Assembly (NCBI GenBank): GCA_021292105.1
Contig: CM037861.1
Location: 26,591,110-26,655,109, forward strand
Source: Anadara kagoshimensis
Taxonomy: Eukaryota; Mollusca; Bivalvia; Arcoida; Arcidae
DNA length: 64,000 nt
Direction: 5' to 3'
The translations under genes were made by a program, and so were the position numbers. This document shows positions 22,301-61,021 of this stretch, in pieces. The notes under the pieces are model-generated. The model made no database searches. It saw only the letters and a program-made list of their open reading frames with translations, and was not told the origin of the DNA. The number at the start of each line of letters is the position of its first letter. Within the stretch, counting starts at the first letter, position 1.

Positions 22301-25300
22301 ATTTTTAGCTCACCTGAGCCAAAGGCTCAGATGAGCTATTGCAATCTATCACCGTCCGTCGTCCGTCGTGCGTCGTGCGTCGTCCGTCGTCCGTCGTGTG
22401 TAAACTTTACATTTTAATCTTCTCCTCCAAAACTACTGGGCCATATTTGATGAAACTTGGTGATTATCATGCCTGGGTAACAGCCTTTCAAAATTGTGTT
22501 CGGGGTTTGGCCACGCCCAACAAGATGGCCGCTGTTACTAAAAATAGCAAAAAGACAAAAAAATCTTCTTCTCTGAAACCAAAAGGTGCAGGCAAATTTT
22601 GATTGGATATTTGGATTCAGCATACCTAGGAACAATAAAATTACGTAATTTTTAAAATGAGACATTTATTGTTATAACGGCTGAAGATAATTGTATGGAG
22701 TTTTCACTATTGATCTTGTCTTGCAATTTTCTTCCAATTGATGTCAAGGTCGAAGGTCAAGGTCATGTCCCAGTTTTTGACCTTCGATAAAAAATGCTAT
22801 TTTTTTAACATTTCTTGTGATAATGGCGTAGGATTTTCAGTTATTTGTAAGTATTGACATGACGATCATTTTGAAACAAAGATCAGGGTCATGGGTTCAA
22901 AGGTCAAGGTCACAGATGTCCAAGAATACCAAAATAGTTAATTATCTGCAAAACTATGAATTTTTTGTATAGGCATGTATATCAGAATATTGTAGGCATT
23001 TGCACAACGATCATTTTGATATATGGTTAATTATCTCAAAAACTATAAATTTTTTGTATAGGCATGTATATTGGAATATTGTAGGTATTGGCCTAATGAT
23101 CATTTTGATATATGAATGAAGGTCATAGGGTCAAAGGTCAAGGTCATAGAATTGAACGAATACTTAAATGGTTAATTATCTCAAAAACTATAAACTTTTT
23201 GTATGGGCATGTATATTGGAATATTGTAGATATTGGCCTAACGATTATTTTGATATATGAACGAAGGTCATAGGTTCAAAGGTCAAGGTCATAGCTGCGA
23301 ACGAATATTTAAATGGTTAATTATCTCAAAAACTATAAACTTTTTATATAGGCATGTATATTAGAATATTGTAGGCATTTGCACAACGATCATTTTGATA
23401 TATGAATGAAGTTCATAGGTTCAAAGGTCAAGGTCATAGATGCAAACTAATACTTAAATGGTTAATTATCTCAGAAACTATAAACTTTTTGTATAGGCAT
23501 GTATATTAGAATATTGTTCGTATTGGCCTATCGATCATTTTGATATATGAATGAAGGTCATAGGTTCAAAGGTCAAGGTCATAGAATTGAACGAATACTT
23601 AAATGGTTAATTATCTCAAAAACTATAAACTTTTTGTATAGGCATGCATATTGGAATATTGTAGGCATTTGCACAACAATCATTTTGATATATGAATGAA
23701 GTTCATAGGTTCAAAGGTCAAGGTCATAGATGCAAACGAATACTTAAATGGTTAATTATCTTAAAAACTATAAACTCTTTGTATAGGCATGTATATTGGA
23801 ATATTGTAGGTATTGGCCTAATGCACATTTTAATATACAGATGTTCTAGCTGTTTATAAATAATATATTGTAGCTAGACTTTAAATATGTTATATATAGC
23901 ATACTTATTTATATAATTATTATAATTAATTTGCAATAATACTTGCATATTATTGGCCCTTACTGCTGAAAATTTTGATATTCTCTTTTAGTAATGTCAT
24001 TGACCATTGAACCTCTGCATAAGATATGTACTCTTCCTCAGGTGAGCGTTAAGGCCCATGGGCCTCTTGTATAATCTAAAATTAAAATTATTTAAAACTT
24101 TATGCAAAGATCTAGGTTCACAAATTAAGAATCATTTGTAGCCAATTTTACAAATTTTGTGAAAATGTAGTCCTTTTTAAAGTGTTTTTTTTTTTATAGT
24201 TTGCTAAAATAGATTACATTATGAAACAATTATTAGAAATCAGTAGCCAATGGCCATTTTGGCTACCAGAAATGGAAATTTAGTGAGATGCCAGTGGAGT
24301 GAGGTTATATTTTAATTACATACCCCAGACAACTTTCTTTCTGTATGTTGAGATAGTTTATTTTGAGATAGTTTATGAAACTGAAATATGCAAAGAAACA
24401 TTGATGAAGTTTTGCTAGTGAATTGACTAATTCTCACACAAGATCTGCTCTTGTCTGATTTAAACATGCCGTGATCTGTAAGCTGGGGCTTTAAGTCACT
24501 TGGCAACGGAGCCCGTAATGCTAAAGGAGATTGAGTAACTTGTGTCACACAAATGCATCTTGTATTCTTTATGTCCCACTCTTTGAGAATCTTTATTCAA
24601 ATCGGGCAGATATAAATTTTTAAAAAGAAACAACTTTGATTTCTATTGTACAATTCTTGTGATTTTTATCCCTTTCATAGGAATTGAAGAAAACATAGGT
24701 ATGGTAGATGTTGATGTAGAACACCCCCATGATACAGAGGATGATGCCATGATCTCGGAACCTGTTGATGAACCTCTACCTTTACCAAAACCATCACCAG
24801 GTAGTTATAAATACTGTAAAGGTTAAATAAAACTTGTTTGGGGTTGACGATAATTTATGTGAGAAGATCTATAGTTGATTTTATTTGTCCTTTGTCCTTT
24901 GAACATAAGAAGCACATTAACTGTTGTACCATATATGTAGAGAGGCCACAGTGACCTAATGGCTAAGACACCAGTCTACAAATGCAGGGTCTCTCACTGC
25001 TGTGAGTTTGAGTCCCGTTTAGACCACATGTGGGAAAGTGAATTTTTCTTGTCCTTGGCCTTTACTGGTTCACCCTGTGTCAGTATAATGTGCCGGGGGA
25101 GTGGTACGCTTGTCTGTGGCGTGTTGACTCGTTAAGCTATCACATTAAAGTCACCCTGACTGTGTGCTGGTACAAGGCAGACCATAAAACACACTCTCAC
25201 TTAACATCCATACACGAACTTGTGCAAAGATTAATCCATAGAGAGTAATAAAGTAGTAGCTGAAAAATTCCTGATGCGACGTTAAACAACATTCAACAAC

Positions 25301-28300
25301 AACAACCATATATGTTATTTACTTTATCTTTGTTATATGTTTTATAACTCTACATTATTACATCATATTTATGTTTATATTATCCTTATTTATAAGTATT
25401 AATCATCCAGTGGTGAAAATTTTAATCACAATTCCAAGGACACTAGCATTAATTTCTTTTGATGTCATAATTAATCCTTGTCGGTAAATTCCTGATCAAA
25501 ATGTTGTATTGTGAAAAAAAAATCAAACAAACTCTTCTATTGTAAAACCTTGATTCATTATCATATTTTGTTGTTATGGAGTGCCTTGGTTTTCAATTAA
25601 TTGAGACTTTTGTACTTCAAAATACAGTGATGATAAGTGGGATAGCAGAGCAAGAGACATTTCAATGCGGTTTTGTTGTAATTAGATATTTTTCTTTTGT
25701 TTTCAGTAAAGACTAAATCAAAATCTCGTAAGATCCGGTTTATGGATGATGATAGTAGAGATCCAGAGGAAGAAGAAAAAGATACCAGGTTAAGGTTTGG
25801 TAAAAAACCGGCAAAGGGTGTAACACCGCTACAAGCTAGGATGTTACGCATGGCTGGTCAGGAAGTACCTGAAGAACCAGAGGAGAAACCAGCAGAATCT
25901 GAAGAAAGTAGTGAAAGTGAAGACGAGGATAGTGACAGAGAAGAGGAACGGAAAATGGAGATTGAGGTATGAAGGCAACAGATTCATAAAGGCTATGTTT
26001 CCATTATTGATTTATTGATAGGAATTGCCGTAAAAACGGTTACATTACTATGTTCTGAATTGTGACCTTTTTAGTCATATTAGCTATCTATAAAAACAAT
26101 GTTATGTCCACAAAAATACTTGCTTTACCTTTACCTTAATGCTCTCTCCGGCAGAAGGGGCATAAGGCAGCAACACTATCCTTCTATTTTTGCCTGTCCT
26201 TTCGCTGCTGCTTTGTGTGTTCCAGCTAGTCCATCCAGCGACTTTTCTTTCCACACAACTTCTCCTACAGTCTCTTAATAAACAGACTGTTTGTACATAC
26301 ATTCTGTGTTAAAGATGTGCATTTTTCAGAATTTAGATTTCTAACACTTACCATGCTATGGACGCATACTATTTTTTAGCTCCTATCAGTTTTAATCTAC
26401 AAATACGAAAGCTGAGTTAAATGGCAAATGTCTTCGTGTTTGTTTGTCAGTATAATTTACCTGTATATATTATTGATTTTAAACAGTTGGAAGATGATAG
26501 AAAAAAGAAGTCACTAAGAGAGGAAGAGACAATGAAATCTAGAGATAAACTACCTAATGGACCCCCAGGGGAAGATGTATCACAACCCCCTCAACAGCCA
26601 CAGAGGTTAATGCCACCTGGTCCTCCCCCAGGTGCACCACCAGGACTCCCTCCAGGTAAAACTTAGTTAATATCTTGCACATTTTTAATACAAAAAAATC
26701 TAAAAAAATTAACTGTTTATTTCTACATCATCATGTTGATTTATATACCATCATGGGTGAATTATTATACATGTATGTGTATTTTTTGACTTATTGTTTG
26801 TTGGTATGTCTGTCTGTCTGTCTGTCTGACTACAACTTTAACTTTTGACTTCTAGGGATTTCATGTTTGGAAAATTCTCTCTTAATATAGGACATTTTCT
26901 AGCAGCTAAACATTTTGACCTGAAGAGCATGCCCTTTATATTCTAACAATTAGTTGCTGGCAAGGAGTGATATAAAGACACACACTTATCATAAACAATT
27001 ATTTATTTTGTTCTCTAGGTCCCCCTCCAGGTGCACCACCAATGATGTTCAGACCCCCTCCATTAAGAGGGGGTCCCCCTGGAGCTCCACCCAGATTGTT
27101 ACCACCAGGGCCACCACCTGGAAGGCCACATGGTTTACCCCCAGGGCCACCACCTGGATTACCTCCAAACATTAGACTTCCCCCAAGAATGCCACCTGGA
27201 CCTCCAGGTAAGTTTTACAATTATGTCTTGCAAATTAAAAAAGACTATGTGTATTGTAAACATAGTAAACGCACTTTTATTCGTGGATATTTACTTTCGG
27301 GATTCTCTTACTAAAACCAAATTGAGAATATTTGCGGTAACATTCACGATATGGACTATAGCTGAATATTTGATATAAATAATACCATGTTTGGAAACAA
27401 GTTCGTGACATTTCACTTTTGCGATTAATTTGTCAGCTCAAAAGTTGATCACACGCAAATAAAAGTTTGTTTACAGAATGTTAAGGCAACCATATATACC
27501 TCATTTCTCAATACAGAGCAAAAGTATTTTGAGCAAAAATATTAGGTACATGAATTGTATTTGGTTAAGTTAAGATATCTCTTAAACAACAAATGGTAAT
27601 GATTTATTAATCTGTTTGTTCAAATTATTACTATATCTGCTTTAATTTCAAAGCACTAGATGGCCAATTTGGAATATAATTCCTCATCATTAGTGCTCAG
27701 ACAAAATTGTGGAAATCAAAATGTTTTTAAGATGTTGAAATGAGAAAAATGGAAGGACTGAAATTAATTTTATCAAATATTTATAATCAAAACTAATAAT
27801 TAAATAAAAGATCTTGTAATATAGTGTTTTTGTAACTGTGCAAAAAGTTAGTTTATCTTTACCAATACAAAAATGCACTATTTGTGAAACATTTATTGAT
27901 AACAATTATGTAATGTCAGCTCTTCATGTATGTCCATGTTTCGGCTTTAATATCATAGCCAAAATATTGACACAGAGCTGACATTATATTGTTATTTTGA
28001 AATGGATTTTCCCCTTAGGGAACTATATTAAGAAAGTAATATACGTTTCATGAATATGATTTTTACAGGTGTACCACCTCCAAGAATGATGCGTCCTCCA
28101 GGTGCCCCACCAGGTATACCCCTACCTGGCTTACCACCACAAGTCATGCTTCCATCTGCGCAGAATCCAAATGTACTTAGTGCCCCACCAAGTATTATGA
28201 AACCACCACAGAAAGCTCCAGAAGAAGAAAAGAAGAACACAGCCACAATAGAAGCTAAACCACAGATTAAAAATGTTATTGGTGATGTCACAAGATTTAC

Positions 28301-29519
28301 ACCAACAGCGCTCAAAGTCAAACGCCAACTCAAAGATTCTAAAGGAAGAGTTAAGGAACAACGTAAGTAGTTATTTTGTTTATCTGTCTGTCTGTCCGTC
28401 TGTCTGACATGGTAGAAGGAAAGTAAGACATAAATGTCATCATTGTCAACAAGCCAATATTTATGTTGTTTTGGGAACTTTTTGTCATTGTTGTATTGTT
28501 GTGGCTAAAACATAGACATGAAACTGTAAAAACTAAATTATGTGTAAGATAGTACAGTCTGTTAGTCCAACAGTTTTCCACACTTTTTTTCTTATCACCT
28601 GCAATTGTTGAAGTGATTTTTGGTGTGCCAGTCTACCACTATGAATTAAAAAAAGTTTGTTATGTTCTACTTTGCTGGTTTTAAGGGGATGATGGCCCTT
28701 GGACTTTGAAAATTTGACATATATATGCCCTTGGGGTATGTGAGCTTGCTTACTTAGACCGCTTTCGAGAGATCCGTTCTTGACACTAGAATGGATTAGA
28801 ATCTGATCTTTGTGTTTGAGACTTATATTCTTGACATGAGTACGTGTTCTTGATTTTCTCAAACACCCAGAACAGTGCATTTGGGTTGTGTTCTTTGCAA
28901 AAAAAAACCTACTCCCACTGTTAGGTGGTGTGATTCAAGAGCAAGATGGTGATATCCAGTGACTTTTAAGTAAATGCAAATGAAAAATAAAAACAAAACA
29001 AAAAAAAATCATTTTCCTCGACAAATAACTCTACTTTCTCTACACTATCTTTGTTGAAGACAGAAACCAGTAAGGGGGGGGGTGTTTTTATTATGGATAG
29101 TTGTGTCAGGATACTCCATAAGATCATTTACCAGTGTAAAGATGCTTAAAATTTTGTTTTCATCTTAATTGTATTCCATGATTGATGTTGATGTTTGAGA
29201 GAAACTACAACCATTTGGAAACAATGAAAACGTTCACTGAGCATTGGAGACTTGCAAGAATGTGTTCTAGGTTCTCAAGAATAAACTCTCGAAAATGGTC
29301 ACAGGTTCATTCATTGACCCAGTAATTGTTACATTCATTAAAGTTTGAATGATAAAGATTTCAAAAGTAATCATTATTTTTTGTGCATTTTTTACAGAAA
29401 AAGAAGAAAAGAAACCTATTGGAGTTGCACCAAAATCAGCACCTGTCATTACTACACAAACTAAGACAAAGGACGATGCTTATGATCAGTTTATGAAAGA
29501 AATGGAAGGATTTTTATGA
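16364..29519 (+). CDS. WBP11: WW domain-binding protein 11 (splicing factor, PP1-binding)
   Basis: WBP11 (NpwBP/SIPP1) is a nuclear, spliceosome-associated protein that binds WW domains, such as that of PQBP1, and protein phosphatase 1. Fourteen coding exons join to 1818 nt, 605 residues (human 641): 16364-16427, 17436-17467, 18262-18355, 19043-19140, 19696-19783, 20298-20369, 21210-21309, 22116-22231, 24681-24800, 25707-25966, 26487-26655, 27019-27207, 28069-28362, 29398-29519. The N-terminus MGRRSINTTKSGKYMNPTDQ is nearly the family signature. A lysine-rich helix follows (RKEARKRELKKNKKQRMM), then acidic tracts, KIRF at about 270-273 (RVxF-type PP1 docking), TPLQARMLRMAGQEVPEE, a proline-rich WW-binding region of repeated PPGPPPG from about 382 to 505, then VTRFTPTALKVKRQ and the conserved end DQFMKEMEGFL. 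All introns are GT-AG. No lesion is seen. Intron 8 hosts a pearl-like element and intron 9 a SINE. Confidence 0.97.
16768..17074 (-). mobile_element. Full-length tRNA-derived SINE (family A) in WBP11 intron 1
   Basis: Read on the minus strand, the head GGTAGCTCAGTTGGTAGAG plus GTGGGTTCGATTGGG gives Pol III A and B boxes; the body includes AATAAACGAGGTCCTGTGTC and the tail ends GGACGTTAAACGCCATTACT. About 307 bp. Confidence 0.85.
17713..17905 (-). mobile_element. SINE tail fragment in WBP11 intron 2
   Basis: GAATGGGGTTTTACCTCCGG, CATCACCAGCTATAGGTGAA and GGGTTCTTTAACGTGCCACT match the tail side of family A on the same strand as the copy at 16768-17074. Confidence 0.65.
22307..24070. mobile_element. 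Pearl-like / Helentron-associated non-autonomous element with 145-bp internal array
   Basis: In WBP11 intron 8. It begins AGCTCACCTGAGCC followed at once by its complement (CTCAGATGAGC), forming a terminal hairpin. It ends with CTCAGGTGAGCG (a subterminal inverted repeat of the start) and the palindrome AAGGCCCATGGGCCT before CTTGT. A short (CGTC)n-like run lies at about 22351-22395. From about 22890 to 23840 is a tandem array: the landmark AACTATAAA(C/T) recurs at 23041, 23186, 23331, 23476, 23621 and 23766, exactly 145 bp apart. There is no coding capacity. The architecture (hairpin end, subterminal inverted repeats, tandem core, T-rich target) fits HINE elements such as bivalve pearl; the family name is inference. 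Confidence 0.75.
24941..25312 (+). mobile_element. tRNA-derived SINE (family C) in WBP11 intron 9
   Basis: The head has A-box-like TGACCTAATGGCTAAGACA and B-box-like GAGTTTGAGTCCC; the body is GC-richer than the intron; the tail ends GATGCGACGTTAAACAACAT then (CAA)n. The body is unlike family A. Confidence 0.65.
26808..26830. repeat. (GTCT)n microsatellite in WBP11 intron 11
   Basis: About five TGTC units; a similar interrupted run is at 28383-28407. Confidence 0.85.
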
Positions 29520-30753
29520 ATCTTTTACTGTAAGTAAATAACATTTAAATTATCTACATTGATCTAAAATGATTTTTTTTAATCGAAGATATATCAAAAT
29601 ATCACATTTTGGTCTTGAAGAATGAGGTCAAGGTCAAAGGTGTATGCATCAGTAAACTTTAATTTTTTCCTCTTAAACTGTTGGGTCGAATCTAATTGAG
29701 TGAGGAAGGTCCTTAGGAATATAGATTAAACATTGTTTTTGACATGGCCATCCAAAATGGTCTGCTGTCATTACTATAAATAGAAAAAATAGCCATTACA
29801 TACCGATTTGGTTCTAATTTTAATTGCAGAAAGTAGATGTATGGCCATGTAACATAGGTATTTGCAACAAGTTATTAATTGAACTTGTGTTCATGGGTGT
29901 TATTATAAGTCAGTTCTTTGAAAATCTTTGCTCTGAAACTGCCAGGCCAAATAGAAAAAAAAATGGCGAGTGATGCAATTTAAAAATTAGCATGACCATT
30001 AAAGTCCAAGATTGCAACTGTACTGTTACAGATTTATTTATGGAAAAATTGAGTTCAGTTTTGATAATACAGAATGTAGATGTATAGCCATTTAATGTTT
30101 ATACCAGATTTTTGTGAGATAGTTTCCCCAATTTTCACAAAATATGCAAATTAAATGTTGATTTAAGCTAATTTGGTTTTAGAAAAATTGGAGATCCTGG
30201 ATTATGCATAATTTAAATAATATTCATTGTGAAAATCCTTGGTTGACGCCTATTTCAAATTGTGTCTGACATGGCTGTATTATTTTCAAAATCAAATTAA
30301 TTGATCACTAATGGTTGAGTGATACAAGCCCTATTTGTCCTCTTGTTATATGACATTCTTTAAATTATCAATGTAACATGTTTGTAATATTTATACTTGA
30401 GAGAAATGAAAGTGACAGGTGTATGATATTCCATTGGCAGTGTTATTGTTAGTTTTTATGCTGACAGTAAGTGTAGAAAAGACTCGGCATCAGTTTCATG
30501 GGGTCATTTTCTGTTAAAAGTTGGTTTTGTTTTTTTTTTTCAAAGATTTGAATTTTCATCAGACTTAAAAAACTTTAAGGGCATAAAAGTTATAATGTAA
30601 ACTGCTTTGTATCATGACTTTCTTATTTGATTGATTTTTATATTCCATTTGTATTACGTCAGTTGAAATTTAATGCTAGATGTTCAGTCTCATCATACTT
30701 GATAAGAGATCCTCTTTACAAAAACTAGGTCAAAATTTGTATATTGTTCATGT
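29520..30753 (+). other. WBP11 3' flank / probable 3'UTR
   Basis: This follows the WBP11 stop. No AATAAA is obvious in the first several hundred bases; an ATTAAA variant lies at 29725-29730. The sequence CTGTAAGTAA about 9 bases after the stop resembles a splice donor, so a 3'UTR intron is possible but unproven. From about 29600 to 30349 the region is a diverged pearl-like element, described separately. Confidence 0.4.
29600..30349. mobile_element. Diverged pearl-like element without an array
   Basis: Similarity to the complete copies is seen at CAGTAAACTTTAAT (about 29650), the following CTCTTAAACTGTTGGGTCG, GGCCATCCAAAATGG (about 29745) and the right end CAAGCCCTATTTGTCCTCTT. No tandem core and no clear left hairpin remain. 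It lies in the WBP11 3' flank. Confidence 0.5.
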
Positions 30754-30766
30754 GGGTACATTACAT

Positions 30767-30865
30767 TACCGCGACATTTTAGAAATTTTCATAACCGCGA
30801 CCCATCCATTACCGCGACAAAATTGTATACGCTACCGCGACATTCTAAATATACGTTACCGCGAC
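30767..30865 (+). repeat. Left-end array of five TACCGCGAC boxes in the MULE
   Basis: Five copies of a CG-rich box (TTACCGCGACATTTT, ATAACCGCGACCC, ATTACCGCGACAAAAT, GCTACCGCGACATTCT, GTTACCGCGACC) lie within 100 bp. The same box in inverted orientation makes up the right end. Arrays like this are usual for transposase binding at MULE termini; that role is inference here. Confidence 0.85.
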
Positions 30866-31107
30866 CTTATATGTTAGATATATTATATAGATTGATTTAT
30901 TTTATTTAAATATAATAGTGCCTCTTCCGTCAGCCAGCGCCTTATACATTTGATGCATAAGACCTGTTTCCCCTGCTCACCACGAGGAGGTGGAAGTAGG
31001 ACTTTGAGCAGGATATATATCTTTATAATTTATTACAAAACATACATATTTAAAAGTTTAAAAGTCGATGTTAAAATTGAGAGTATTCATGATTGTACAC
31101 TTCTGAA

Positions 31108-32493
31108 TCAGACAACCGGCAACGCTTTAAAGGCCATCCTTCTAACATACTCAATTCGTGTGAGTTCACCATTTTCAAATCTGGCTTTTAGTTCCTTTTT
31201 CTGTTTAGTATTATCACTCTCTTTCCGTCCTGAAGGAAATCTACCATTTGCAGCACGAATTTTTAGGTAGGTTTTTGTTTGTACACATTGAATCTTGGCT
31301 AAGAAGTCAAAGATATTTGGATGAGAACTGTAGAACATCGTACTAAACTCCTTGTGAAAACTTTCACACCCGTTCGTTGTCCTTTTGCCTTCAACATCGG
31401 AGTCTGCCCATATAATAGGAGGAAAAGACGACGACTGATCAATGTAGTTATTGACTACATAATCTGCAAAGTCAACAGCTTTTTCTGAATCGGGAGCCTC
31501 AGAAAATATGTCAAAGACGAAACACTCCTCAACTACAGCAGGATCTAGAAAGCTGATTCCGAAAAAAGTTTTCAGCCACTGTCCAACTGCTGAGTCCTGA
31601 CTCTTATATTCAGACGCTAGACCAAGGCTTTGGATCTTCCGATACCACGCTTGAGCAAGGTGAAATTGACATCCTTTGATAGCGACATCAGGCCAAAAGT
31701 GCCTTGCTGCATCATGAACAGCTAATTCAAAGTCAAGATTTAAATTTTTGATGTTCAGTGTTAAGTTTTCCTTGACACATGCATCTACAAGGCAACGGAA
31801 CATTTCAATATAGCATGCCTTGGTTTTGAACGGAAGAAGGAAAAATACACATGGTATATACTGTCCATTCTGAAATATGTGAAGGGTATACAATTGATAA
31901 AAATGTTTTGCGCAATATTGGAATGTTCCATCTCCAAAAATCTGTACATCTTCCTGACATAAGGATTGCAAGTTTGATTTAGTCGTGAGCATTACAATTT
32001 CCGATTCTGAACTACTGACATAAATCATGTCTTCACCTTTACTCGACTTGAGTTCATATTCTTTCAACATCTCGATTGTTTCCATTCTAGAAGTTGGTAA
32101 CTTGGGCTGCGTCTTTCGCCGTTGTCTATACATAGCCTGCCTTACTGAAGTTATGTCCTGACTCACAAGTTCATCGGTACCAACTTTTTCAATCTCCTTA
32201 ATGATCAGCTTAGATGGTCTTTCTAATGGCTCATCTTCGGCTTTTCTTTTACAGGCGTGTCGAACTTTCTGTCTCTCAATTGTCCGTCGCTCGGGTTCGT
32301 CGTGATCATGCTCAAGTCTTCCTCCTAATATAAGAAGCTCATCTAAATCAGTTTTGCAGTTACTTTTGCACGATTTTTCTACGCACCTCCAAAGTTTTGA
32401 ATTCTTGAAAAATTTATCTTTTCTGAATTTAAATCCATCTACGATTATCCCAGGATTTCCTCTGTTTGTGACAAACTTCTCTATCGTTGCCAT
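31108..32493 (-). CDS. MULE transposase with N-terminal FLYWCH zinc finger
   Basis: A single uninterrupted frame of 461 residues from ATG 32493 (Kozak A at -3, G at +4) to TGA at 31108. Upstream codons stay open but lack an ATG, so this start is preferred. Residues about 8-66 are a FLYWCH-type zinc finger (DGFKFRKDKFF, WRCVEKSCKSNCKTD, then EHDHDE): C37, C42, H62 and H64 are likely zinc ligands. The MULE catalytic domain follows, with the acid triad seen as D188 (FGDGTFQYC), D254 (NLDFELA) and E377 (NGCESFHKEF), and the family's C/H motif GCQFHLAQ at about 274-281. The C-terminus is lysine- and arginine-rich. The enzyme should cut and paste its element through the flanking inverted repeats. 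It is on the strand opposite to the upstream WBP11. Nothing suggests host domestication: it sits between its own ends with a target duplication. Confidence 0.9.
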   Translation of the reverse strand: MATIEKFVTNRGNPGIIVDGFKFRKDKFFKNSKLWRCVEKSCKSNCKTDLDELLILGGRLEHDHDEPERRTIERQKVRHACKRKAEDEPLERPSKLIIKEIEKVGTDELVSQDITSVRQAMYRQRRKTQPKLPTSRMETIEMLKEYELKSSKGEDMIYVSSSESEIVMLTTKSNLQSLCQEDVQIFGDGTFQYCAKHFYQLYTLHIFQNGQYIPCVFFLLPFKTKACYIEMFRCLVDACVKENLTLNIKNLNLDFELAVHDAARHFWPDVAIKGCQFHLAQAWYRKIQSLGLASEYKSQDSAVGQWLKTFFGISFLDPAVVEECFVFDIFSEAPDSEKAVDFADYVVNNYIDQSSSFPPIIWADSDVEGKRTTNGCESFHKEFSTMFYSSHPNIFDFLAKIQCVQTKTYLKIRAANGRFPSGRKESDNTKQKKELKARFENGELTRIEYVRRMAFKALPVV

Positions 32494-32610
32494 TTTGTCA
32501 ATAACTGATTTCAGTTCAGGGTGAGTAGATAGTGAGTATATTATGTGTTGTATTGATTTTATACATGTACATGTAGAACTCTTTAAAACCAATCGTAAAT
32601 TTTATACATA

Positions 32611-32720
32611 TGTCGCGGTAACGTATACTATATAGATGAAAAAATGTCGCGGTAATGTATACTTTATTTTTTAACAAAATGTCGCGGTAATGAACGGTAA
32701 ATTTTGACAATGTCGCGGTA
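32611..32720 (-). repeat. Right-end array of four inverted TACCGCGAC boxes in the MULE
   Basis: Four copies of TGTCGCGGTAA(T/C)G, the reverse complement of the left-end box, are spaced about 33-36 bp. The first three left boxes align with the last boxes here as a terminal inverted repeat. Confidence 0.85.
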
Positions 32721-32741
32721 ATGAGCTTTCCCCGTTCATGT

Positions 32742-41597: not shown

Positions 41598-41945
41598 CGA
41601 TAGGTGGCCGGGTATCTCAGTGGATATAGCATCCGCTAGTATAGAAAGGTCCTGGGTTAGAGTCCTGGTTTGACTGCTTCATTATTCCCTTTTCTGTTTC
41701 ATTTTGGGGATTGTCCAAACCTGGGAAGTTGCTGACCAATAGGTTTATCCCAGGGTAGAACCTGGTAGTTTCAATTCAAGAGAGTTGAATCAAAAAAAGA
41801 AAGGGAGGAATATGGTGGGCCGGACTCAACAGGTGGCCAATTAGCTCAGTAGAGTGTCCCACTGGTATTGGGAAGGTATCAGGTTCTAGTCCAGGTTTAG
41901 CGCTGCATTTTTCCCCTTTCCTGTTACACTAAGTCTTATAAAAAG
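41598..41945 (+). mobile_element. SINE with two tRNA-like heads (family D)
   Basis: Two similar heads lie about 230 bp apart: GGTGGCCGGGTATCTCAGTG with TGGGTTAGAGTCCTGG (41604-41670), and GGTGGCCAATTAGCTCAGTA with CAGGTTCTAGTCCAGG (41832-41906). Each is followed by CCCTTTTCTGTT / CCCTTTCCTGTT. This is either a dimeric SINE or two side-by-side copies. Confidence 0.6.
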
Positions 41946-47214: not shown

Positions 47215-48684
47215 AGCTCACCTGGCCAAAGGCCATGTGAGCTTATGGCATGGCGAGGCATGCGTGTGTCAGTAAACTTTAATCTTCTCCTCCGAAACTA
47301 CTGGGCCAACTGAAACCAAATTTGCCATGGAAGGTCCTTGACAGAGTCTAACTATAGTATGTTCAAATCATGGTGATCAAATATCCAAGATGGCCGCTGT
47401 TATTAAAAATAGACAAAACCTAAAAAAATCTTCCTCTGTTGAACCACTCATTGGAGGCAAAAACTGATGTGATATTTGGATTCTACATAGTCTTAACCTT
47501 TAACTTTGTTCATTTCGTAAAATTTGGTTTAAAAATAGGTTACGCGTTTTTGCGTTCAATTTTGAAAAAATCGTAAAATATTTTTAAATTGTTATAACTT
47601 GACTATATGACCAGATAATGACATGGGGTTTTCAGTTTTGACATATTCTTGTAATTACCTTCAAAATGGTGTCAAGGTCAATTATGAAGGTCATGACCTA
47701 ATTTTTTACCTTTCTAATATTATTTATTATCTCGATAACTATAAACTTTTTATATAGGCATGTATATTAGAATATTGTTGGTATTGATGTAATGATTATT
47801 TTGATATATAGATTAAGGTCATTGGTTCAAAGGTCAAGGTCACAGATGCGAAAGAACACTGAAATGGTTCATTATCCCGAAAACTATTAACTTTTTGTAT
47901 AGGCATGTATATTAGAATGTTGTAGGTATTGATACAACAATCATTTTGATGTATAGAAAAAGGTCATGGGTCCAAAGGTCAAGGTCACAGTAGCAAAACA
48001 ATACCAAAATCGTAAATTATCTCGAAAACTATAAACTTTTTGTATAGGCATGTATATTGGAATGTTGTTGTTTTGATGTAACAATCATTTTGATATATAG
48101 ATTAAGGTCATTGGTTTAAAGGTCAAGGTCACAGATGCGAAAGAAAACTGAAATGGTTCATTATCTTGAAAACTATTAACTTTTTGTATAAGCATGTATA
48201 TTAGAATGTTGTAGGTATTGATACAGCAATAATTTTGATGTAAAGAAAAAGGTCATGGGTCCAAAGGTCAAGGTCACAGTAGCAAGTCAATACCAAAATG
48301 GTTAATTATCTCGAAAACTATAAACTTTTTATATAAACATGTATATTAGAATATTGTTGGTATTGATGTAACGGTCATTTTGATGTATAGAAAAAGGTTA
48401 TGGGTCCAAAGGTTAAGGTCACGGTTGCAAAACAATACCAAAAAGGTTCATTATCTCGAAAACTATTAACTTTTTGTATAGGCATGTATATTAGAATATT
48501 GTTAGTATTGATGCAATGATCATTTTAATATATAGCAGGGGCGGATCCAGGATTTTTTGAAAGGGGGGGTTGAAAATTATATCAATGGTAGGTGTGAGCG
48601 CCGAAGGCACGAGCTTTCAGAAACGAGGGGTCTAGGGCAGAGCCCCGATGGGGGCCAAGAAAATAATTTTTAATCAGTCAATAG

Positions 48685-51805: not shown

Positions 51806-52218
51806 GATCTTTAAATTGTCATGAAATAAAATATAAGAAAAATAATAGCGTGTGACATTTGTATTTAATAAACGGATTGCTTTCCTAAAAACGTGCGTTT
51901 TGTTTTTTAGCTCGAGACATTGCACAAACAAGGTACATTATGTTCAGCTTGAAATGTTGTACTATTTATTGTCCTACAGAATGCTTGTCAATTAATGATT
52001 TCCTGGACTTAAATGTTCTGTAGGCAAAGACTAATGCAACATGTCCAATAACAAATTAATGTATCAGTTTTAAATGATGAAATCCATTCAATATTTAATA
52101 CTAATGCATTAATGATTTTTTGATTACGTAAACAACTTATTCTAACTGTTGTCACTAAACGAAACCATTTCCTTTCATTAATTGATTTCTTGTTTATTTT
52201 CTTATAGCCTCCCTGTAC

Positions 52219-53500
52219 TTGCTAACTGAATGTTTCGTCTTCTGTAGTGGTTAACAGAATGTTTTGCCTTCCTATGTTTGCTCAGTAGATGTTTTGCCTT
52301 TCTATGCTGGCTCAATAGATGTTTACCTTCCTGTGCTGGCATAACAGATGTTTTGCCTTCCCGTGCTGGTTCAATAGATGTTTCGCCTTCCCGTGTTGGC
52401 TCATTAGATGTTTCGCCTTCCTGTACTGGCTCAATAGATGTTTCGCCTTCATGTGCTGGCTCAATCGACGTTTCGCCTTCCTGTGCTGGCTCAATAGACG
52501 TTTCGCCTTCCTGTGCTGGCTCAATAGATGCTTGGCCTTCATGTACTGACTCAATAGATGTTTCGCCTTCCTGTGCTTGCTCAATAAATATGTGGCCGTC
52601 CTGTGCTGGCTTAATAGATGTTTGGCTGTCCCGTGCTGGCTTAATTAATGTTTGGTCGTATTGTGTTGGCTTAATTGATGTTTCGCCTTCCTGTGCTGGC
52701 TCAATAGATGTTTGGCCTCCCTTGCTGGCTCAATATAGATGTTTGGCAGTCCTGTGTTGGCTTAATAGATGTTTGGCCGTCCCGTGCTGGCTCAGTATAT
52801 GTTTGGCCTTCATGTGCTGGCTCAATAGATGTTTCGCCTCCCTTGCTGGCTCAATATAGATGTTTGGCAGTCCTGTGTTGGCTTAATAGATGTTTCGCCT
52901 TCCCGTGTTGGCTCATTAGATGTTTCACCTTCCTGTGCTGACTCAATAGATGTTTTGCCTTCCTGTTGTTTGACCGTCCTGTGCTGAATCAATAGATGTT
53001 TGGCCGTCCTGTGCTGACTCAATAGATGTTTTGCCTTCCTGTTGTTTGACCGTCCTGTGCTGAATCAATAGATGTTTGGCCGTCCTGTGCTGGATCAATA
53101 GATGTTTTGCCTTCCTGTTGTTTGACCGTCCTGTGCTGAATCAATAGATGTTTGGCCGTCCTGTGCTGGATCAATAGACGTTTTGCCTTCCTGTGTTGGC
53201 TCATTAGATGTTTCGCCTTCTTGTTCTGGCTTAATAGATGTTTTGCCTTTCTGTGCTGGCTCAATAGATGTTTCGCCTTCCTGTACTGGCTCAATAGATG
53301 TTTTGCCTTCCTGTGCTGGCTCAATAGATGTTTCGCCTTCCCGTGCTTACTCAATGTAATGGCAAAATGGATGCTTCGTCTTCATATGCTGGCTCAATAG
53401 ATGTTTTGCCCTCCTATGTTGGCTCAATAGCTGTTTTGCCTTCCTGTACTGGCTCAATAGACGTTTTGTCTTCCTGTTTTGTCTAACTGAGTGTTTCGTC
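52219..53500. repeat. Minisatellite, about 30-bp unit, some 42 units
   Basis: The unit is about TGTTTCGCCTTCCTGTGCTG plus GCTCAATAGA. Variants group by position: GCCTTC units at both sides and GGCCGTC units in the middle. Higher-order copies exist: a 76-bp unit ending TTGTTTGACCGTCC (landmark CTTCCTGTTG at 52959, 53035, 53111) and a 121-bp repeat around CCTCCCTTGCTGGC (52716 and 52837). Because 30 is divisible by 3, several frames on both strands stay open (for example 10-residue repeats SPSCAGSIDV and, reversed, SQHRKAKHLL). No start context, splice signal or known protein supports coding. Confidence 0.85.
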
Positions 53501-56980: not shown

Positions 56981-58609
56981 GTAAGAATATGCCGATAAGG
57001 TTATAACAATGCTTTTTCTTTTTTAATTATGACATGTTTCGTCTCATTTTAAGGAATTGTTATTGACAAATTGAAAGTGTTCAACTGCCTTGATTTGTGT
57101 ATACACGTGTCAGCCTTGTTATAAATAGACGGCTCTAGTCCAATCAAATTAAGGCGTTAATGTGGATTAAGATTTTGACGCGGTTTTACCTTGCATGCCC
57201 ATACCTATATATATTTAAATGCAATGGGGGTTTTTAACTGTCTGAACATGTAGAATATTGACACACCTTCTAAAAGAGTTCCAACAAAGTGACATTTCAT
57301 TTTTAACTGACCTCAAGACTTGGTCTAAAGACAAGCTTCAGATAACTGGACACAAAGATTTTAAAGGAACACCTGGAATAAAAATTCTGATTGTTCAGGT
57401 ATTTTGCACATTTTGATATTTTTCATTTCATTTTAAAAAATAATACTTTTTAATAAATAAAACAATTTTATCTAGCTGAAGGTCTTATAAAACACTACAT
57501 TGACTATTTTAGCAAAATATTTGAGATCCTTATTGGAATTATTAATTTTTCTGCAAAATATTTTTTTTTCATTTTGTGCTCAAATGTTGCAGTTTAATAA
57601 TTTTGTGAATTAATTAATTAATTAAAATACATGCATGTTAATAAAAATAAATGTAAATTAATTTAATTAAATCAATAATAATGAATAAGTAATAATAAAT
57701 AAATGCAATACTCTTGAATTTTCTGTAGTGTCATTTTTATAGAAGTTTATACCGGTATTTGATATGCATGTGATATAATGAAAAAAGGTACCGGGTATAT
57801 ATATCTACAAATGTCAATACATCTACTTCAATGAAAGGTTAAGTAGGTCATCTTGTCTTAAATGGTGTCACATTAATTCCAATTGTCTTATTAATTTTAT
57901 TTTCACTTTTTGATTAAATTACAAATATTATGTTGATATTCATGCAGGATTGAGCATGTTTGTAAATAAAGCATATTAAAATTCATCATTTTTTGATCAG
58001 GAGTTATTGACCTTGAAAAAAATATATGGGTTTAATTCACATATATATAGAGTGTATAATGTATAAAATGAAATTTTGGAAATGTCATTAATGTAATTGT
58101 TTTTAAATCATTTAATCAATGTTTTATTTTTTTTTAAATTTTTTAAAATTGTAATTTTTCATTGTTAATAGAGACAATTTTTTTTTAACTCAATGTGAAT
58201 ATTATATGTACATATTGAGATTTCCATACATAGAATATTTGCAATATAAATACGGAATTTGATATAAATTAGATTAAATTTTTGGATAATCGGAAAGAGA
58301 TGTCATAAATCGAGAAAAAATGTCTTTTCATTACATGTAATGTTTCTTAGCTTTACAGTACTTGTCCACTGTAACACTTACCCTATACTTATGAACACCA
58401 GATTTATTTATTTATTTATTTATTTGTTTATTTTACAGCTAATGTGTTTATTTATTTATGTATTTATTTATTTTACAGCTAAGTTAATGTTAATGTTGAC
58501 TTACTTTTTTTATTTCACAGAATAAACAAATTATTGTGTGTTTCTGCTAAACAGCCAAAACGAAGTTCCCACAGGCATATACGGTGCAGAGGCATCAGAG
58601 GTCGGGAAG
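56981..58609 (+). other. FOXJ1: Probable FOXJ1 5' intron and start of the first coding exon
   Basis: AT-rich sequence from the proposed donor at 56981 to the acceptor at 58520, with repeated TTTATTTATTTA runs (58401-58475). The 89 bp from 58521 to 58609 would be 5'UTR. The frame is open upstream to a GTG at 58538, but the first in-frame ATG is 58610. Confidence 0.45.

Positions 58610-61021
<2,412 letters not shown>

Follow-up and report, generated by a model that had tools for sequence, protein, structure and literature searches.

An apparently young FLYWCH-type MULE of the bivalve Anadara kagoshimensis with a predicted HDV-like self-cleaving ribozyme in the 3' untranslated region of its transposase gene

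What could a conserved stretch be doing between the transposase gene of a small DNA transposon and the end of this transposon? The question is raised by a Mutator-like element (MULE) that occupies positions 30754 to 32733 of a 64,000-nucleotide stretch of the genome of the bivalve Anadara kagoshimensis (assembly GCA_021292105.1, contig CM037861.1, positions 26,591,110 to 26,655,109; this whole stretch is called the window below, and positions are counted from its first letter). Judging from sequence, it is probably a complete FLYWCH-type MULE that is young and moves by cut and paste, and whose transposase transcript carries a self-cleaving ribozyme like that of hepatitis delta virus (HDV) as a built-in, conserved module of its 3' untranslated region (UTR). 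Observed here are the anatomy and the copy number of the element, the sequence and the topology of the ribozyme, its presence in three families in one genome and its place between the gene and the subterminal repeats. An earlier note on the window had described the transposon; the ribozyme is absent from it.

The element is 1980 bp long, has its transposase gene on the reverse strand and is flanked on each side by GTTCATGT (30746 to 30753 and 32734 to 32741, a feature without strand). The bases adjoining these two copies differ, so that the target-site duplication is exactly 8 bp, as the earlier note had claimed and within the range of MULEs (about 8 to 11 bp). Taken alone, it is weak evidence, because two 60-bp stretches picked at random in the window share an 8-mer in 9.3% of cases and because the flanks also have in common two overlapping 8-mers that belong to an older repeat. 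The two ends of the element align with each other with a score of 102, while 500 shuffles reach 52 at most. They form imperfect terminal inverted repeats built from repeated motifs, namely five ACCGCGAC motifs on the forward strand at the left end (30764 to 30866) and four TACCGCGAC motifs on the reverse strand at the right end (32609 to 32724), the outermost lying 14 nucleotides (nt) from the end on both sides. All nine TACCGCGAC-like motifs of the window (0.95 expected) are found at these two ends and, with up to one mismatch, the motif is absent from the rest of the window.

It had also been claimed that the element interrupts an older repeat. The flanks, joined with one copy of the target-site duplication, align across the junction with a neighbouring unit of this repeat with a score of 62 (best score elsewhere in the window, 50; maximum of 500 mononucleotide shuffles, 54), and the interruption is therefore retained as probable. 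The ratio of observed to expected CpG is 0.99 in the element, 0.79 in its coding part and 0.30-0.31 in the 5-kb flanks, and this contrast is in line with a recent arrival.

The transposase is encoded by a single open frame at 31108 to 32493 of the reverse strand (461 residues and a stop codon, counted from the first ATG). The open stretch that surrounds it runs over 497 codons, and 500 dinucleotide shuffles of the element reach 196 at most. A FLYWCH zinc finger covers residues 9-64 (32302 to 32469, reverse strand; 31.2 bits for a Pfam cut-off of 23.6) and the Pfam MULE domain covers residues 188-281 (31651 to 31932, reverse strand; 31.4 bits for a cut-off of 27.6). What the earlier note had read from the letters, a FLYWCH-MULE transposase in less than 2 kb with matching element ends, an uninterrupted frame of 461 residues, zinc-finger ligands and an acid triad, is thus borne out. 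All the ligands are present (C37, C42, H62 and H64), as are the catalytic residues D188, D254, C275xxH278, W362 and E377, the triad being D188, D254 and E377, and W362 and E377 lying beyond the Pfam MULE domain. These residues were matched by eye to those named for the mosquito MULE Muta1 (PMC5225508; the papers cited here are represented by parts of their text). The DDE, CxxH and W of the transposases of the MULE superfamily are therefore found together with an N-terminal FLYWCH of the Phantom/Muta type. Solved structures searched by sequence gave no match, and the AlphaFold model made from the single sequence has a predicted local distance difference test (pLDDT) score of 36.8 and is unusable. 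No relative of the transposase was confirmed in IMG/VR or GTDB genomes, as expected for an animal element.

Muta1, in which D214, D283, H307, W401 and E419 were shown to matter, likewise associates a FLYWCH with a DDE domain with CxxH and W, target-site duplications of 8-9 bp and ends made of subterminal repeats; the D-H spacing is 24 in both elements, and the D-D spacing is 66 here and 69 in Muta1 (PMC5225508). Unlike Muta1, which measures 3198 bp with two exons and has arrays of nine units, the present element has 1980 bp, one exon and looser arrays of four or five units (PMC5225508). In the same way, Tm1 from root-knot nematodes has a FLYWCH/MULE transposase (496 residues), composite ends made of repeated units and short derivatives devoid of the gene, but its target-site duplications are mostly of 9 bp and some of its copies contain a histone hairpin (PMC3169594). 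The available parts of these papers mention no ribozyme for Muta1 (PMC5225508, PMC6446971) or for Tm1 (PMC3169594). A survey of MULEs put Muta into Phantom and listed two mollusc groups, for which the text consulted gives no zinc finger (PMC6446971), and a bivalve repeat library includes 39 autonomous MULE consensus sequences (PMC10294476). The element would act as Muta1 and Tm1 do, its FLYWCH finger binding the repeated TACCGCGAC motifs and its DDE domain cutting the ends.

How recently this could have happened can be asked of the other copies. The genome searched is the 1.115-Gb assembly of 36 contigs from which the window comes, where a search with the DNA of the element gave at least 59 matches (40 of 119 candidates scored), and the counts are lower bounds. 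At least 11 near-full-length copies of its family, called here family A, are present, including that of the window; ten of them (L107 was left out) differ pairwise by 0.10-0.61%, with a median of 0.25%. The earlier note had called the element intact and apparently young and had asked for such a count; the count supports this description and excludes a single-copy locus, the outcome that the note had named as contrary to it. An exact 8-bp target-site duplication is found in 21 of the 26 family-A loci examined, full length or internally deleted, and the other five are truncated or altered at one end. Twenty distinct duplications were counted; L102 and L107, which have the same one, are probably one duplicated locus. 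The frame is uninterrupted from residue 1 or 2 to residue 461 in seven copies including that of the window, the main alignment stopping before one end in two of these seven (C18:9.37 Mb and C11:43.1 Mb). Family A looks like a recently active family, made of an autonomous member and non-autonomous derivatives.

The predicted ribozyme lies in the 3' UTR, between the transposase stop codon and the left end. It is on the transposase strand, as are all the features given in this paragraph, and is 92 nt long (30921 to 31012), with a predicted cut between 31013 and 31012. The 5' strand of P1 (CCUGCUC, 31006 to 31012) pairs with GAGCAGG at 30972 to 30978, and that of P2 (CCU(A)CUUCC, 30992 to 31000) pairs over 8 bp, with one bulged A, with GGAAGAGG at 30921 to 30928. 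P3 (ACC/GGU, 30979 to 30991) closes L3 (UCCUCGU), whose CC pairs with the GG at 30970 to 30971 to give P1.1. P4 is a hairpin at 30935 to 30966, of 14 bp with one bulge according to RNAfold, and J4/2 (GGCUGAC) includes the predicted catalytic cytosine at 30933. An AATAAA (30901 to 30906) starts 14 nt after the 3' strand of P2, and an additional one, with a chance probability of 7.8%, is found 16 nt upstream of the predicted cut (31029 to 31034). The idea that this 3' UTR is a captured piece of a gene was dropped on recognising the ribozyme.

Could an ordinary MULE show such a resemblance by chance? Run on the element at a lax threshold, Rfam matches the HDV ribozyme of F. prausnitzii (RF02682; 31.5 bits over the full model; E 0.0018 for the element and 0.06 for the window) and, at the same place, drz-agam-1 (RF01787; 23.5 bits over the full model; E 0.078 and 2.5), two covariance models from other hosts. 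The RF02682 alignment agrees with the hand reading of P1, P1.1, P3, P4 and J4/2; the RF01787 alignment puts its own P2 elsewhere and spans part of the stretch. P2 is outside the RF02682 model, and a score as high as its own arose 121 times when its two segments were shuffled 200,000 times. When the whole window is searched, two microRNA models, which are also below their cut-offs, outscore the HDV models at one other place. A descriptor of the double pseudoknot gives the ribozyme a score of 60, with 45 for the runner-up when both strands of the window are considered; on one strand each, 208 shuffled windows reach 50.5 at most and 164 random 64-kb sequences with the composition of the window 51 at most. 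This descriptor replaced a looser one, which had many chance matches. The sense strand folds better than its shuffles (z -2.6), with a z of -0.4 for the opposite strand. A chance resemblance would fit a score below the curated cut-off and a window-wide E of 0.06, but it is hardly credible, as the topology score is reached by none of the shuffled or random sequences and as ribozyme copies are found in three families, three of these copies scoring 44.2-49.5 bits.

These families come from a census of the ribozyme in the genome that is a lower bound and depends on the families known beforehand. Searched with the DNA of the 111-nt ribozyme region, the genome gave at least 40 matches (40 of 108 candidates scored). 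Judging from their positions, 29 of them belong to family-A copies; four of these are truncated inside the region and, among the 25 others, 24 carry a 92-nt ribozyme identical to the letter. The 11 further loci (L104, L105 and L154-L162) were all fetched, and each has a ribozyme or a broken form of it, with repeat-array motifs of a different kind within about 250 nt downstream in ten; L161 has none that near. Exact matches to a 35-letter pattern of the 5' core number 42 across the genome (reversed control, 0), which by their letters are 24 of A type, 15 of B type and three of C type; such a match represents the 5' core and is no proof of a whole ribozyme, and 13 of the 15 B matches were looked at further.

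In family B, the subterminal repeats read AATCGGCGCAAATG, and L105 encodes a transposase 35-47% identical to that of the window, its gene lying upstream of the ribozyme on the same strand. Five short copies of 332-505 bp have both ends, GGCCGTATGAC...AAACGCC(G/A); four of the five have an exact 8-bp target-site duplication, which is the same in two of these four. L104, L154, L155, L156 and L158 comprise little beyond the two ends and the ribozyme, which is broken in L154 and whole in the four others, short elements of 332-464 bp. Family C comprises L157, L160 and L161, with subterminal repeats that read AATTGCCGGAAACG and, in L161, a partial transposase 35-44% identical to that of the window; target-site duplications were not found at these three loci, and the ends of the family are not delimited. 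Half of the six copies scanned from families B and C reach the RF02682 cut-off of 44, namely L105 (49.5), L104 (47.0) and L173 (44.2), and L161 (43.9), L157 (37.4) and L171 (37.4, without the 5' strand of P1) are below it.

A real ribozyme could still be a passenger, captured by an ancestral MULE, for example from the 5' end of a retrotransposon without long terminal repeats (LTRs), and hitch-hiking unused since. HDV-like ribozymes are indeed known from R2 and other long interspersed nuclear elements (LINEs) (PMC7761336, PMC3774820), the capture of host sequence by MULEs has been described (PMC5225508), and broken copies of the ribozyme exist. The comparison of the families argues against this. 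When the DNA of A is compared with that of B and of C, the ribozyme far outranks every other match (81% in both, E 1e-19 and 2e-17 respectively), the transposase genes giving weak stretches (E 0.010 and 8e-4); between B and C, the transposase genes align (E 1e-19) almost as strongly as the ribozyme (E 7e-22). For one copy per family, 41 positions of the 43-nt 5' core are identical between A and B, and 40 between A and C and between B and C (93-95%), although the transposase DNA of B or C hardly aligns with that of A. The sequence of P4 differs among the three families but mostly stays paired: it has 14 bp in A and, in B, 7 bp that GAAA closes, except in L159, where it is shorter and follows a run of G; in family C, there is a stem with a mismatch or an internal loop in L160 and L161 and none in L157. 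Pairing is thus kept in A, in B and in two of the three family-C copies, and P4 alone gives evidence of the covariation type, because P1, P2 and P3 hardly vary. Furthermore, orientation and place are alike in the three families, and an AATAAA is present downstream in ten of the 11 whole copies, 14 nt after P2 in family A and in the whole family-B copies other than L156 (six of seven), and at 19 nt in all three family-C copies. An unused passenger therefore appears unlikely.

J4/2 reads GGCUGAC in A, GGCUAAC in B and C and GGCAAAC in L159. Its cytosine is present in the 11 of 14 sources with a whole ribozyme, as found by patterns that themselves demand a C; the three others fail by deletions (L154 and L162) or for want of a P1 strand (L171), not by another base. 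Small faults affect, for example, P1.1 and P2 in L160 and P2 in L158. The minimum-energy fold of L104 forms P1 and P4 and beats its shuffles (z -2.9), and P1 is also formed in that of L157.

The conserved block could also be a DNA or structural RNA signal, such as a part of the end bound by the transposase or a poly(A) enhancer, which would look like a ribozyme and not cut. It adjoins the subterminal repeats and an AATAAA, the letters of P1, P2 and P3 are nearly invariant and so beyond the reach of covariation, the +1 base is a C, and the minimum-energy folds of L157 and L161 are unremarkable. Such a signal is nevertheless very unlikely given the full HDV topology, with its pseudoknot P2, its P1.1 and a cytosine at the catalytic position, given a P4 kept more as a stem than as a sequence, and given the three copies that pass the Rfam cut-off. 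Moreover, L154 has lost half of the block and has an exact target-site duplication; an intact ribozyme therefore seems unneeded in cis by a non-autonomous copy.

Several points weigh against a ribozyme that is conserved as a cutting module. The window ribozyme is under the curated Rfam cut-offs (31.5 for 44 with RF02682 and 23.5 for 37 with RF01787), and the topology descriptor was composed after the candidate had been seen. The 35-letter pattern was derived from the families that it counts, 24 of its 42 matches are near-identical family-A copies, and the genome searches for the ribozyme cover one genome. HDV-like ribozymes usually have a G at +1. This base is C, not G, in the window and in all 11 other printed loci, and the cut may accordingly be slow or absent; G is found in 11 of the 12 fitting viral loci described below, and the cut position is labelled G1 in theta ribozymes (PMC10879173). 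The minimum-energy folds of L157 and L161 are no better than those of shuffles (z -0.1 and -1.4), and that of L161 prefers another fold, without P1. Damaged copies belong here as well: L154 and L162 are broken by the same deletion of the 3' half, L171 is devoid of the 5' strand of P1 and, among the family-B loci L177-L181, read over about 130 bases each, L177 and L180 are without P1.1 and part of P4, L180 having also a change in J4/2, and L178 is without the 3' strand of P1 and everything after it. In the same set, L179 has one change in the 3' strand of P1 and L181 looks whole. Lastly, the benefit for the element, set out further on, is one that we infer.

The distribution of the module in the MULEs of this genome is a further point of this kind. 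Among 14 stretches located 3' of other transposase matches, two have a ribozyme (L171 and L173, both of family B), and a motif search revealed none in the 12 others: L163, L164, L165 and L175, from a family 28-33% identical; L166 and L170, from another family; L167, L168, L169, L174 and L176; and L172, a family-B end with a deletion. Rfam gave no HDV match for L163, L166, L168, L174 and L176. L168 and L169 stop shortly beyond the matched part, and a deletion may have removed their ribozyme. The module is therefore seen in one part of the MULEs of the genome.

Are the scores low for a ribozyme of this type? A 15-mer of the ribozyme has 78 loci in IMG/VR, 12 of which fit P1, P1.1, P2 and the C, at least two of them (L023 and L068) weakly; an 18-mer has 17 loci in GTDB genomes, none of which fits the ribozyme, and the patterns of the end motifs, 3' UTR and core have no match in IMG/VR. 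Seven viral contigs with ribozymes of the same stem-loop serve as a yardstick: RF02682 gives 22.5-26.9 bits in four and no listed match in three, so that 31.5 bits is not low for such ribozymes. The theta-like viral copies have the CACCUCCUCGUGGUG stem-loop in common with the window ribozyme by the design of the search. The theta ribozymes of phages are HDV-like too but, unlike that of the window, they are minimal, located beside tRNA genes and cut before G1 (PMC10879173). Viral contigs with HDV-like ribozymes include L065, L009, L060, L003, L015, L011 and L016; three of these ribozymes are in tRNA arrays and three more are on contigs with nearby tRNA or tRNA-like matches, like the published theta ribozymes.

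In R2 and other LINEs, the RNA to be copied owes its free 5' end to an HDV-like ribozyme (PMC3774820, PMC7761336), and an abalone HDV-like ribozyme is also mentioned (PMC3774820). The ribozyme of the window resembles those of LINEs by its nested double pseudoknot, the catalytic C of J4/2, a variable P4 and its residence in a mobile element; theirs are at the 5' end of a retrotransposon RNA, whereas this one is in the 3' UTR of a cut-and-paste transposase (PMC3774820).

Other features were seen around the element and in its relatives. Proline-rich open stretches (26976 to 28370, forward strand), with the MULE about 2.4 kb downstream of them, have no Pfam match and may resemble WBP11. Two exons of a forkhead gene (58526 to 61021, forward strand; Pfam Forkhead), which may be FoxJ1, enclose a hairpin-like stretch (59163 to 59257) that gives matches to microRNA models on either strand, all under the respective cut-offs. 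The window also includes two arrays of a similar 145-bp tandem repeat (23023 to 23837 and 47726 to 48535), a 30-bp minisatellite with long open frames kept on both strands (52202 to 53478) and a tRNA-Thr-like stretch (41835 to 41903, forward strand; 27 bits for a cut-off of 29). In the other MULE family of L166 and L170, the 3' region has a small nested inverted repeat, AACCTGTCGAAAGTTTAA, with the letters CTGATGAG; a hammerhead was suspected there, and Rfam gave no match for L166.

What, then, would a ribozyme do in a transposase messenger? The gene is read from the right end, and the order in the RNA would be right end, frame, stop codon, 95 nt, cut site, ribozyme, AAUAAA and left end. By cutting itself between 31013 and 31012, 95 nt past the stop codon, the RNA would deprive its coding part of the poly(A) tail and of the RNA copy of the left end. 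The likeliest benefits would be a transposase output kept low and transient, and complementary ends kept out of one RNA, where a long duplex could form. As RNA, the two ends give a duplex of -114.5 kcal/mol, for -37.7 (standard deviation 5.6) when one end is shuffled 200 times, so that double-stranded RNA could arise from transcription across both. In family A, the AAUAAA located 16 nt before the cut means that part of the mRNA could receive its poly(A) tail before the ribozyme has been transcribed.

Alternatively, the downstream product could be what matters: cleavage would yield a small RNA composed of the ribozyme, the left-end repeats and the poly(A) tail, its 5' end kept stable by the ribozyme, and this RNA could act in its own right, for example as a decoy for the transposase. 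The geometry is that of retrotransposons, in which the ribozyme stays on the downstream RNA (PMC3774820, PMC11331408). The AATAAA found 14 or 19 nt behind the ribozyme in ten of the 11 whole copies and the whole ribozyme of the four short family-B elements would suit such a product. A DNA transposon has no use for such an RNA that we are aware of, and we consider this reading quite unlikely.

Since cut-and-paste transposition does not pass through RNA, a ribozyme that is conserved in the messenger of the transposase would be expected to act in the control of expression or in RNA-based evasion, or else to be a stubborn passenger. As to the first two of these, we see the chances as evenly balanced that a MULE lineage has turned the ribozyme into a lasting functional part of its transposase gene, an mRNA-cutting switch that would tune transposition or escape silencing based on double-stranded RNA. 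The HDV-like ribozymes of mobile elements have been described for retrotransposons and, among the matches listed from open-licence literature, no title or abstract start reports one in a DNA transposon. If it is true, a eukaryotic DNA transposon would be limiting itself by cutting its own messenger, a means that is unexplored, and other elements as well as host genes might have acquired ribozymes from such MULEs.

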